Of a DNA stretch of 64,000 nucleotides, positions 16,019 through 43,652 are shown piece by piece. A program made the position numbers and the translations under genes. Under the pieces are notes generated by a model that worked only from the letters and a program-made list of their open reading frames with translations, did no database searches and was not told the origin of the DNA. Where the stretch lies: positions 124,001-188,000 of the forward strand of contig NZ_JANCMW010000002.1 of assembly GCF_029207565.1 (NCBI RefSeq), written 5' to 3'. Each line of letters begins with the position of its first letter. Positions within the stretch are counted from its first letter, which is position 1. Source of the stretch: Marinobacter iranensis (GTDB lineage Bacteria > Pseudomonadota > Gammaproteobacteria > Pseudomonadales > Oleiphilaceae).

Positions 16019-17506
16019 TCAGTGGTCGAAATCGTTGTAGGTCATGGCGACAGCGCGGAAGATCGCGCGGCCCTTGTTCATGGTTTCCTTCCACTCGAGG
16101 CGGGGCACCGAGTCCGCCACCACGCCGGCACCGGCCTGGATGTGCAGGGTGTTGTCCTTGATCACGGCCGTGCGGATGGCAATGGCGGTGTCCATGTTGC
16201 CGTTGAACGACAGGTAGCCCACGGCGCCGCCGTAGACACCCCGTTTCACCGGCTCCAGCTCGTCGATGATTTCCATGGCGCGGATCTTGGGGGCGCCGCT
16301 CAGGGTGCCGGCGGGCAGGGTGGCCCGCAAGACATCCAGGCAACTCGTGTTCTCCTTCAGGCGACCGGTCACGTTGGAGACAATGTGCATGACGTGGGAG
16401 TAGCGCTCCACGATCATCTTGTCGGTCAGTTTCACGGTACCGGTTTCCGATACCCGGCCGGCGTCGTTGCGGCCCAGGTCGATCAGCATCAGGTGCTCGG
16501 CAATCTCCTTGGGGTCCGCCAGCAGTTCGGCTTCCAGGGCCCTGTCCTCGGCATCGGTGGCGCCGCGTTTGCGGGTGCCGGCGATGGGCCGCACGGTGAC
16601 TTCCTCGTCTTCCACCCGTGCCAGGATTTCCGGTGACGAGCCGACAATATGGAAGTCGTCCAGGTCCAGGAAATACATGTAGGGGGAAGGGTTCAGCACC
16701 CGCAGTGAACGGTACAGGTTCAGGGGTGGTGCCTCGAACGGGATGGACATGCGCTGGGAGATGACGGTCTGCATCACGTCACCATCCAGCACGTATTCCT
16801 TGATCCTGCCCACGGCTGCTTCGAATTTTTCCTGGTTGAAGCCGGAGATGAAGTCGCTCTCGTCCACCGTCTTGCCGCGCAGGTGCTCCGGGGTGCGGGG
16901 CGCGTTGGCGGTTTGCCGGTGCAGGCGCGATTCCAGGTCATCGATGCGTTGCAGTGCTTCCTCGTAGGCGCCCTCCCGGTTGGGATCGGCGTGAACGATC
17001 AGGTGCAGTTTGCCGCGCAGGTTGTCGAACACCACCACTTCATCAGACACCATCAGCAGAATGTCGGGCGTGCCGATCTTGTCCGGGGGACAGCTCCTGC
17101 GCAGACGCTTTTCAATGTAGCGCACGGTGTCGTAGCCGAAATAGCCCACCAGGCCACCGTTGAAGCGGGGCAGGTCGTCCAGGTCCGGCGCGTTGAAGCG
17201 GGCCTGGTATTCTTCGACAAACGTAAGCGGATCGTCCGCCGTGGTTTCCTCTACCACCTTACCGTCGCGGGTGATGGTGATGTTGTGGTCGTAAACCTTG
17301 AGAATTTCACGGCTGGGCAGGCCGATGATGGAGTAGCGGCCCCATTTTTCGCCGCCCTGGACGGACTCGAACAGGTAGGAATAGGGGCCACTGGCCAGCT
17401 TGAAATAGGTGCTCAGGGGCGTGTCCAGGTCGGCGAGGACTTCGCGATAGACGGGGATACGATTAAAGCCGGCCTTGGCGAGCTCGGCGAATTGCTCGGG
17501 TGTCAT
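16019..17506 (-). CDS. trpE: Anthranilate synthase component I
   Basis: A 495-residue chorismate-utilising enzyme that makes anthranilate, the first committed step to tryptophan. The N-terminal domain has the feedback-binding segment [20 protein letters not shown] at about residue 45, corresponding to the LLES site for tryptophan. The C-terminal domain holds the catalytic core: [33 protein letters not shown] and [18 protein letters not shown]. It follows gph by 177 bp and precedes trpG by 16 bp. I looked for a Trp-rich leader peptide in those 177 bp and found none, so feedback inhibition may be the main control here. Confidence 0.95.
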
Positions 17507-17683
17507 GGTAACGATTCCTGAAATCTGATCTGTATGGTGGACTTTCGGGCGGCATTCAGCCGATGCGCCATCGCCACCATCGTGTTGCGCGGGTTGTCAG
17601 TATGCCCTGCGCTGTAATCAGACTCAGTCCCTGCACGGCAGGAATCTCCCGAATTGAAGGTTTCAAATCAATATCCTGTGAGA

Positions 17684-42289: not shown

Positions 42290-42319
42290 TTGCAAAGCCG
42301 GAAACCGGGGATATATATT
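42290..42319 (+). promoter_or_regulatory. Candidate promoter of the DAHP synthase leader transcript
   Basis: TTGCAA at 42290-42295 and TATATT at 42314-42319 (18-bp spacer; TATATA at 42312 with 16 bp is an alternative) precede the leader peptide start by about 68 bp. The transcript would begin near 42326 and include the whole leader and attenuator. Confidence 0.5.
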
Positions 42320-42386
42320 GGAAAGCATGAAGACGACACACACGACCTGTCAATTGAATGTTCTGCAAGCTTTCGGTGAAAAACCG

Positions 42387-42461
42387 ATGGCGGCGGTCGC
42401 TGCTGTGTTTTTTTGGTGGTTTGGTTATGGCTATTTTAGCCAGAGCCCGGGCCGCCCATAA
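42387..42461 (+). CDS. Aromatic-rich leader peptide of the DAHP synthase attenuator
   Basis: A 24-codon reading frame from ATG 42387 to TAA 42461, too short for ordinary gene callers. Codons 8-17 read FFWWFGYGYF: four Phe, two Trp and two Tyr codons in ten positions, a density that is very unlikely by chance. The tail is SQSPGRP. GGTGA lies about 10 bp before the ATG. The frame ends 64 bp before a strong intrinsic terminator and 133 bp before DAHP synthase. By analogy with trp, phe and his leaders, ribosome stalling at these codons would report charged tRNA-Phe, tRNA-Trp and tRNA-Tyr. The peptide itself probably has no other job. Confidence 0.85.
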   Translation: MAAVAAVFFWWFGYGYFSQSPGRP

Positions 42462-42545
42462 GATCTTCATCGACCGAATAACGAGGAAGGCAGCCCGGCA
42501 GGAACCCAGGCTGCCACCGGACTCAAAAAGCCCCGACTGGTAGCC
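42447..42545 (+). promoter_or_regulatory. Antiterminator / alternative hairpins of the attenuator
   Basis: Hand pairing gives a chain of exclusive helices. Segment 1, at the end of the leader frame (42447-42456), pairs 9 of 10 with segment 2 (42489-42498). Segment 2 (GGCAGCC, 42489-42495) pairs instead with segment 3 (GGCTGCC, 42509-42515). Segment 3 (GGCTGCCA, 42509-42516) can instead pair with TGGTAGCC (42538-42545), which includes part of the terminator stem. Stalling upstream frees segment 1, so 1:2 forms, 3 opens the terminator and transcription continues. A ribosome at the stop codon covers segment 1, so 2:3 forms and the terminator folds. Confidence 0.65.
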
Positions 42546-42561
42546 CAGCCGGGGCTTTTTT
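42525..42561 (+). terminator. Intrinsic terminator of the DAHP synthase attenuator
   Basis: Arms 42525-42540 and 42545-42560 form a 16-bp stem with one A-C mismatch around a TAGC loop, rich in G-C (GCCCCG / CGGGGC), followed by six T residues. It lies between the leader peptide and the DAHP synthase ATG, where it can only serve to stop the leader transcript. The upstream gene is on the other strand and does not need it. Confidence 0.9.
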
Positions 42562-42593: not shown

Positions 42594-43652
42594 ATGAACA
42601 TGTCGCTGAACATCGAGACACTGAACGAAACCAGCCAGCCACCAGGAGCCGGGCCGGTAATCCGGGAAGTGCCGCTGCCCACGCCGGAGGAGCTTCGGGC
42701 CAGCCTGCCAGTATCCGCCCATGTGCAGGCACGGATTCGCCAACACCGGGATGCCATTCGCCGGGTGCTGCACGGTGAGGACGCCAGAACGCTGGTGGTG
42801 ATTGGCCCCTGCTCCATACACGATGAAGTGGCTGCTCTGGAGTATGGTGAAAAGTTGAAAAAGCTGGCGGACGACGTCAGTGACCGTTTCCTGATTGTGA
42901 TGCGTGCCTACCTCGAAAAACCCCGTACCACCGTAGGATGGAAAGGCCTACTCTACGATCCCGAGCGCACCGGCACCGGTGACCTCAACGAAGGCTTGCT
43001 GCGTTCCCGGCGCCTGCTGTTGAATCTTTCAGACATGGGCCTGCCATTGGCCACCGAAGCCCTCAGCCCCTTCGCCATGGACTATCTCGGCGACCTGGTG
43101 AGCTGGACCGCCATTGGCGCGCGCACCACCGAGTCCCAGATTCACCGTGAAATGGTCAGTGGCCTGCCGATGCCAACGGGATTCAAGAACGGCACCGACG
43201 GCAGTATTGGCGTGGCTATCAACGCCATGAAATCAGCGGCTCATTCTCATCATCGCTTTGGTGTCAGCAGTACTGGCATGCCAGCGATGATTACAACGGA
43301 AGGCAATCCCGATACTCATCTTGTACTGCGCGGCGGACGGGGCATCACTAACTACGATGAGGAAAGTATCGGTGAAGCAATAGAAGACTTATCTGATGCG
43401 GGCGTTTCCGCCTCGGTCATGGTCGATTGCAGCCATGACAATGCGCAGAAGCAGTCGTCGCGACAGCTGGAGATTGCGAGGGAAGTGATGAGCCAGAAGC
43501 GTGCTGGTAATGCGAGTATTGTCGGCTTGATGCTGGAAAGCTTTCTGGAAGAGGGCCGCCAGAATGACAGCGACGATCTGATTTACGGGTGTTCCTTGAC
43601 GGATCCCTGTATTGGCTGGAAGCAAACGGAAGAATTGTTGCGAGGCCTGTGA
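42594..43652 (+). CDS. 3-deoxy-7-phosphoheptulonate (DAHP) synthase, class I
   Basis: A 352-residue enzyme that joins phosphoenolpyruvate and erythrose 4-phosphate, the first step of the shikimate pathway. Motifs of the AroF/AroG/AroH family: VVIGPCSIHDEVAALEYGEKL with the metal-binding Cys, MRAYLEKPRTTVGWKGL, GARTTESQIHREM, GFKNGTDGSIGVAINAM and MVDCSHDNAQKQ. Which feedback inhibitor it answers to cannot be read from sequence, so no isozyme symbol is given. It is preceded by an attenuator whose leader codes for Phe, Trp and Tyr, so synthesis should be controlled by all three end products. It is a single-gene unit ended by palindrome copy F. Confidence 0.95.
   Translation: MNMSLNIETLNETSQPPGAGPVIREVPLPTPEELRASLPVSAHVQARIRQHRDAIRRVLHGEDARTLVVIGPCSIHDEVAALEYGEKLKKLADDVSDRFLIVMRAYLEKPRTTVGWKGLLYDPERTGTGDLNEGLLRSRRLLLNLSDMGLPLATEALSPFAMDYLGDLVSWTAIGARTTESQIHREMVSGLPMPTGFKNGTDGSIGVAINAMKSAAHSHHRFGVSSTGMPAMITTEGNPDTHLVLRGGRGITNYDEESIGEAIEDLSDAGVSASVMVDCSHDNAQKQSSRQLEIAREVMSQKRAGNASIVGLMLESFLEEGRQNDSDDLIYGCSLTDPCIGWKQTEELLRGL

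Follow-up and report, generated by a model that had tools for sequence, protein, structure and literature searches.

A predicted transcription attenuator with phenylalanine, tryptophan, and tyrosine codons ahead of a DAHP synthase gene in Marinobacter and other Pseudomonadales

Introduction

In the attenuator of the his operon, the hairpins A:B, C:D, and E:F are opposed by a relay of alternative helices, B:C and D:E; trpL follows a three-helix logic. Comparative studies of aromatic regulation are said to have been carried out by the Gelfand group, and the AroR leader of Corynebacterium glutamicum reportedly goes back to a study by Neshat et al. in 2014. For the trpL, pheL, and pheST leaders of Escherichia coli, the available part of one account describes how stalling at codons of the product amino acid chooses between terminator and antiterminator (PMC11802643). 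The accessible portion of a paper on the trpL leader (rnTrpL) of Sinorhizobium meliloti reports a leader ORF that begins with the first bases of the transcript (PMC7298713).

Attenuators have also been described or proposed ahead of genes encoding DAHP synthase. In C. glutamicum, AroR, with a Phe-Tyr-Phe sequence, precedes aroF and acts by attenuation; excerpts of two papers report a response to Phe but none to Tyr (PMC11802643, PMC4046766). As far as the available parts of the sources go, a Phe upstream ORF, uORFC-13-1, lies before aroF in Acholeplasma (PMC8632094), the aroF genes of Shewanella and E. coli are listed or cited as possible attenuators (PMC2659441, PMC8632094), and the Vibrio DAHP synthase-tyrA is among the attenuator predictions of Merino (PMC1173090). 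DAHP synthase is therefore a repeated target of attenuation. A sequence-only reading of the locus studied here had regarded a leader testing all three aromatic amino acids as possibly undescribed for a DAHP synthase in this group. AroR is a precedent for DAHP synthase leaders; a leader testing all three aromatic amino acids in front of this gene still stands as new, since no description of one was found in the accessible parts of the open-access papers.

Results

An Aromatic Codon Run Precedes the DAHP Synthase Gene

The window, a 64,000-nucleotide stretch of the Marinobacter iranensis genome, contains a leader region and its downstream gene with the following features.

42290..42295, plus strand: predicted −35 box TTGCAA of the leader promoter; together with the −10 box, 9 of 12 consensus letters
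42314..42319, plus strand: predicted −10 box TATATT, ending 7 nt before the ATG at 42327, with conserved spacing
42327..42461, plus strand: probable leader peptide ORF of 44 codons, MKTTHTTCQLNVLQAFGEKPMAAVAAVFFWWFGYGYFSQSPGRP and stop; equivalent start in 114/114 relatives
42408..42437, plus strand: putative control codons FFWWFGYGYF (Phe, Trp, Tyr), kept in 114/114 assessable genus members and unique in the window
42594..43652, plus strand: DAHP synthase gene (3-deoxy-7-phosphoheptulonate synthase, AroFGH type; TIGR00034, NF009395), the presumed regulated gene

The identity of the downstream gene, first read as a DAHP synthase from its letters, was confirmed by the NCBIfam aroFGH model TIGR00034 (439.5 bits against a cut-off of 173.2). 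Its product matches the Tyr-sensitive chain 6agm (E 3.9e-109). The second DAHP synthase of this genome is a paralogue, 53% identical.

The frame 42387–42461, in which a leader peptide had been proposed, is open and translates as MAAVAAVFFWWFGYGYFSQSPGRP followed by a stop codon (42459), which ends 132 nt before the DAHP synthase start. The reported codon run FFWWFGYGYF is present at codons 42408–42437, eight of its ten codons being aromatic. It is the only 10-codon stretch with eight aromatic codons in the six frames of the whole window, and a first-order Markov simulation with the dinucleotide make-up of the window (60 × 64 kb, 5.8 million stretches) gave a maximum of six aromatics per stretch. 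The aromatic codon run is real and beyond chance. Its fortuitous occurrence in an untranslated region, next to an ordinary terminator of the upstream unit, can practically be dismissed: no support for this explanation was found, and it is opposed by the uniqueness of the run in the window, its lack of a match in the simulations, the frame conserved in relatives, and the conservation of the run across families together with covarying pairings.

Conservation in the Genus and a Predicted Leaderless mRNA

All 120 genomes searched in the genus gave a match, and the DNA upstream of the orthologue was read for 115, the count leaving out four genomes in which only the paralogue was found and one gene cut by a contig end. 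One of the 115 regions ended 25 nt from the gene, so that 114 were assessable. M. mangrovi and M. halodurans, although named Marinobacter, are placed in a separate genus (g15) of the genome set used. The proposal of a sensing leader had been staked on relatives keeping the run, and none has lost it: eight aromatics in ten codons are found in 86 of the 114 and seven in the other 28. No such run precedes the paralogous second DAHP synthase (0/15, with at most 4/10 aromatics).

The leader had been given 24 codons, an extent that was not borne out, since the conserved start predicts 44 codons from the ATG at 42327. The ATG at 42387, originally chosen as the start, has an in-register Met in 30 of the 114 relatives. 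The ribosome-binding site reported with it was rejected on conservation, and at the conserved ATG (42327) an SD-like motif (AGGA, GGAG, or GAGG) occurs in 1/114. An in-frame ATG followed by Lys, Asn, or Asp lies 43–49 codons from the stop in 114/114 relatives (ATG 42327 in the window); as the start was located in relatives by this very rule, its presence is partly by construction, which does not hold for the spacing to the −10 box. This box ends exactly 7 nt 5′ of the leader ATG in 111/114 relatives, as TATATT in 79 and TATAGT in 32. A −35 box of the TTGC or TTGA type is found at 15–19 nt spacing in 112/114, in 106 of them at 18 nt.

Because the conserved ATG follows the conserved −10 box by only 7 nt, a leaderless mRNA is predicted. 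The leader probably comprises the 44 codons from ATG 42327, and from the predicted transcription start, leaders in the genus of the window would be translated without an untranslated stretch ahead of the ATG. A −10-like box, according to a pattern chosen after inspection of the sequences, lies 6–8 nt before an in-frame ATG at 17/24 loci of the other non-Pseudomonas lineages. In the Pseudomonas type, an SD-like motif was observed at 46/49 loci and a −10-like box 6–8 nt before the ATG at 0/49.

Five leader codons upstream of the run, CQLNV (TGTCAATTGAATGTT, 42348–42362), are near-invariant at the base level, with for instance CAA in 107/107 distinct leaders. This base-level invariance is unexplained by the attenuator model.

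Mutually Exclusive Pairings in the Leader RNA

The leader RNA folds well below its shuffles (z −4.4). The following pairings were identified by scanning, folding, and comparison in alignment A1, which comprises 36 diverse non-Pseudomonas leaders.

42415..42456, plus strand: hairpin A:B (A 42415–42424, B 42447–42456) with an inner hairpin (42428–42433/42437–42442), overlapping the control codons
42447..42498, plus strand: alternative helix B:C (42447–42456 with 42489–42498), from alignment A1
42489..42515, plus strand: hairpin C:D (GGCAGCC/GGCTGCC), from folding and alignment A1
42509..42545, plus strand: alternative helix D:E, predicted antiterminator (42509–42516/42538–42545 and 42518–42520/42533–42535), from alignment A1
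42527..42561, plus strand: intrinsic terminator E:F (hairpin 42527–42558, T run 42556–42561), from scan and folding

The loci of A1 were selected for a leader and the terminator pattern; B:C, C:D, and D:E are free of this selection. On A1, the four helices of the A:B hairpin are paired in 75–95% of cells, B:C in 83.7% (changes on both sides at 3/9 pairs), C:D in 93.0% (3/9 pairs), and D:E in 92.7% (5/11 pairs). Segment D covaries with E, as in GGCUGCC:GGUAGCC, GACUGCC:GGCAGUC, and AGCUGCU:AGCAGCU. Some pairs are less regular: one B:C pair is broken in 12/36 sequences and one A:B pair in 19/35.

Taken together, the antiterminator set B:C + D:E is paired in 88.5% of cells, versus 15–41% when slid by one to three columns, and the terminator set A:B + C:D + E:F in 90.6%, versus 30–57.5%, the conservation of E:F being partly by construction because the loci were chosen for the terminator pattern. 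In statistics that ignore the relatedness of the leaders, 21 cells changed on both sides in the antiterminator set (8/20 pairs involved), against 5.9 in shuffles, and the terminator set had 49 such cells, where shuffles gave 16.7. The number of additional pair types in B:C + D:E did not exceed that of the shuffles (344/500). The leader thus contains the mutually exclusive, conserved antiterminator demanded of the attenuator class. A terminator of the same pattern occurs at 235/246 loci with the leader, some genomes being counted twice (180 distinct sequences); in the window, the terminator hairpin ends 35 nt before DAHP synthase.

Distribution of the Leader among DAHP Synthases

The leader precedes the orthologue in other genera and families with varied wording: VYFWWFAYGFYFSQRSGHA, VYFQWFGFGYFYSHTPGHV, YFSGWHFWFYF, YWYFAEYFFGYYF, and, in Pseudomonas, SFYFGYWFSHWRA. 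Phe, Trp, and Tyr codons are all present within the last 19 codons of 179/179 distinct leaders of the order, which were selected by at least six aromatics in ten codons and the terminator pattern, not by the presence of all three residues.

We built a quick tree of 76 DAHP synthases in which 37 with the leader are split from 39 without by one branch (one change; SH-aLRT 100). In this tree, loci L241 and L247, which failed the terminator pattern, are counted with the leader; L253 (where a short attenuator was found later), L310, and L321 are entered as lacking it; and the lineages g5 and g8, for which only part of the gene is available, are omitted. Relabelling L253 gives two changes, and relabelling the doubtful ORFs of L310 and L321 as well gives four. 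Within the Pseudomonadales, the leader follows one DAHP synthase clade, but not exclusively: at least one shorter form occurs elsewhere.

Short attenuators, GWWFTYFKS and ..QWPRYRHYFFMY, each followed by a stop, lie before DAHP synthases of family f36 at L253 and L356 (the latter on the reverse strand). Both have the same GGCAGC/GCTGCC and CCCCG terminator logic. L253 falls outside the leader clade of the tree, and L356 (genome G272) is absent from it.

The model R1, built from the leaders, has a single strong hit over its full length in the own genome, located at the DAHP synthase (E 1.9e-37). Five weaker matches there (E 0.006 to 0.8) concern the terminator part only, one of them being the opposite strand of the same terminator. 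At E 0.001, R1 matched 41/145 genomes of the order; nine of these matches are strong (E below 1e-15) and without exception precede DAHP synthase. The other 32 are weak; among them, those in G190, G197, G211, G261, G269, and G296 are leaders already found before DAHP synthase, and those in G223 and G272 were the further ones examined. At the level of the class, the strong match was confined to the own genome, with eight weak ones elsewhere.

Outside the order, upstream DNA was read for 29 loci (29/106 class genomes with a match). Two of these loci have an ORF with at least six aromatics in ten codons, L310 (MVVRFWFDWFVWNGKT) and L321 (MRPTYFSYYRYYRYTYFM), and the terminator scan found no terminator near either. 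The Tyr-rich ORF at L321 lies about 136 nt before a DAHP synthase of another order and is possibly a separate Tyr leader.

The end of the leader peptide might suggest a different mode of action, that of a nascent-chain arrest peptide such as TnaC, which has a terminal Pro before its stop. A free aromatic amino acid would then be bound while SQxxGRP acted in the exit tunnel. The residues 3′ of the run (SQxxGRP and stop) are indeed conserved in Marinobacter, mostly as GRP, and the Pro before the stop recalls TnaC. However, the C-terminal ends vary by lineage (GRP, GRL, GHA, WRA, SKSVKHT), as do the distance from the run to the stop and the order and number of the aromatic codons, and the C-terminal conservation is explained by the same bases forming segment B. 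We regard arrest by the nascent chain as very improbable and retain attenuation through tRNA charging as the preferred reading.

Ribosome Position and the Choice of Structure

For folding, the RNA behind the ribosome was masked and the transcript truncated ahead of arm F. The final 9 nt of this transcript form the E arm, and we scored how far they paired with RNA lying upstream. Under equilibrium folding and an assumed 12-nt footprint, each of the five lineage groups showed more of this pairing when the A site stood in the run than when it had reached the stop: 0.75–0.82 versus 0.34 in the genus (45 leaders), 0.70–0.74 versus 0.17 in other members of the family (12 leaders), 0.65–0.83 versus 0.01 in families f6 and f35 and near relatives (5 leaders), 0.40–0.59 versus 0.18 in g5/g8 (6 leaders), and 0.71–0.75 versus 0.34 in the Pseudomonas type (46 leaders). 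In the Pseudomonas type, the pairing peaks over codons −12 to −6, which are the aromatic run; 76% of the leaders have an additional Trp codon at −3, a position of low pairing. With the footprint assumed and a 5′ border that is soft outside the Pseudomonas type (in Marinobacter, 0.61–0.77 just before the run), E-arm pairing correlates with aromatic frequency at 0.48–0.60. For the window leader, D:E reaches 0.71 with free RNA from 42429–42447 and falls to 0.12 from 42471 on, where C:D rises to 0.54. With RNA freed from 42327–42363, D:E is 0.45–0.70, so that clean termination of untranslated RNA is not predicted.

The attenuator could work while responding mainly to one amino acid, such as Phe or Trp, with the remaining aromatic codons as passengers. 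Trp-Trp and the Phe-Tyr-Phe end are both near invariant in Marinobacter, and either could dominate; AroR, which has Phe-Tyr-Phe, reportedly answers Phe and not Tyr in the excerpts cited above, so an aromatic codon in the run need not be sensed. Against a single sensor, all three residues recur in every one of the 179 distinct leaders despite changing order and number (FFWWFGYGFYF, FYFGYWFSHW, YFSGWHFWFYF), and the run, bar the Trp at −3 in Pseudomonas, sits where stalling is predicted to favour the antiterminator. We therefore consider a sensor of one amino acid rather unlikely, and joint reading of the three the better account.

The Pseudomonas sRNA P15 and the Leader

In Pseudomonas, the part of the leader that begins with the control codons and ends with the terminator is matched by Rfam family RF00627 (Pseudomonas sRNA P15), with scores above the gathering score of 70 at, for example, L081 (129.5 bits, 1553–1672) and L236 (103 bits, 1080–1200). 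Matches were found in 11/145 genomes of the order, seven of them over the cut-off. All 11 lie on the same strand as the same DAHP synthase gene and end 71–323 nt before its first matched codon. No Rfam family matched the window at gathering score, and P15 gave no match at L001 up to E 0.5; the element of the window lies upstream of a DAHP synthase from the same clade as the P15-associated genes. By match and position, P15 is the Pseudomonas form of the predicted DAHP synthase leader attenuator.

The consulted part of a 2008 study lists P15 among the sRNAs detected by Livny et al. Livny et al. (2008) themselves, in the portion available, pointed to synteny shared by P15 and a TPP riboswitch, and suspected that it might be a riboswitch or cis element. 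A 2026 study, as far as accessible, built an overexpression strain of P15 and treated it as an sRNA. In the available parts of the open-access literature, no link of P15 to an aromatic leader peptide was found.

P15 could be a free trans-acting small RNA gene, as catalogued in RF00627 and in the list of Livny detections, with an incidental reading frame; action in trans by a terminated attenuator RNA has a precedent in S. meliloti rnTrpL, in the part of that report at hand (PMC7298713). We judge this highly doubtful, given that the same DAHP synthase follows P15 in 11/11 genome matches, that the frame and the three aromatic residues are kept, and that a cis element had already been suspected. 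The cis attenuator preferred here may have a role in trans in addition.

A Second Proximal ORF and a Frame before trpE

Among 59 loci whose terminator and gene are separated by 90 nt or more, 56 contain an additional ORF that carries a W-R/C-F/Q motif (WRF in most cases), the motif having been chosen after inspection of the sequences.

L225–L229, L231, L236, L238, L239, L242–L244, and most of L071–L111: second proximal aromatic ORF, between the terminator of the first leader and DAHP synthase

Its wording is ..YYRYY..WRF.. or ..GWRFIGGWRY followed by a stop, with MNYATYYRYDSFTAWRF.. in Pseudomonas and ..TGWRFIGGWRY in g15. At the ten loci scanned, no terminator was found after this ORF. The second leader is absent from the window, where only about 30 nt separate terminator and gene.

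Elsewhere in the window, a Trp-rich frame ending in TRWWRWRIG and a stop (17556–17582, minus strand) stops 49 nt before trpE (16019–17506, minus strand). It is likely a Trp-only leader; no terminator was seen by eye between the two. A Trp-only frame before trpE is what one would predict if the codons of a leader mirror the products of its enzyme.

Discussion

The ORF, its aromatic run, the pairings with their covariation, and the tie to DAHP synthase are established by the sequence and its comparison among relatives. The suggestion that this is an attenuation leader is supported by the retention of the run, by the presence of all three residues in 179/179 leaders, and by the covarying antiterminator together with the terminator. 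The architecture is very probably that of a his-operon type attenuator. We consider the leader highly likely to be a transcription attenuator for DAHP synthase that works through the translating ribosome and reads charged Phe-, Trp-, and Tyr-tRNA jointly; we infer the promoter start, ribosome stalling, and the response to each amino acid.

In the proposed mechanism, when Phe, Trp, and Tyr are plentiful, the ribosome would pass the aromatic codons to the stop at 42459 and cover segment B. With B covered, C would pair with D, terminator E:F would form, and transcription would stop before DAHP synthase. Shortage of any one of them would make the ribosome stall in the run, and B would stay free. 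B would then take C, D would take E, the terminator would be blocked, and DAHP synthase would be made. Such a leader would be an OR gate, in which starvation for any of the three opens the shared first step.

A wider reading, which we find evenly poised, is that of an old three-tRNA OR gate tied to one DAHP synthase clade, existing in SD-led and leaderless forms, with P15 as its terminated product and the second ORF (56/59 loci) as a second checkpoint. If so, the entry to aromatic amino acid synthesis across a large order, Pseudomonas included, would be under one three-tRNA leader, and a function would be assigned to an Rfam family that the 2026 study, in its accessible part, overexpressed as an sRNA. 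A single ribosome would be reading an OR gate that occurs in nature and can be tested, and leaderless and SD-led versions of one attenuator would be available as a pair.

Among known systems, P15 shares with the element of the window the gene neighbourhood (11/11 matches) and hairpins in a similar order; unlike it, P15 is catalogued as an sRNA, and its model has no match to the window sequence. The his attenuator of E. coli and Salmonella has the same relay, its control codons likewise lying in A and its stop codon beside B, but tests His only. Likewise, trpL, pheL, and pheST of E. coli differ from the window leader in testing one amino acid each. The trpL leader of S. meliloti is a Trp leader with a reported start, whereas the leaderless start of the window leader is predicted. 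For the other DAHP synthase attenuators, the signal, if named, is Phe or Tyr, and the available parts of the sources describe no three-aromatic run. AroR resembles the window leader as an aromatic-codon leader peptide before DAHP synthase acting by transcription attenuation. It differs in that no Trp is named and that it belongs to an actinobacterium; an independent origin of the AroR and window leader RNAs would seem likely. DAHP synthase attenuation itself is known, and what is new is the three-amino-acid form, its spread, and the link to P15.
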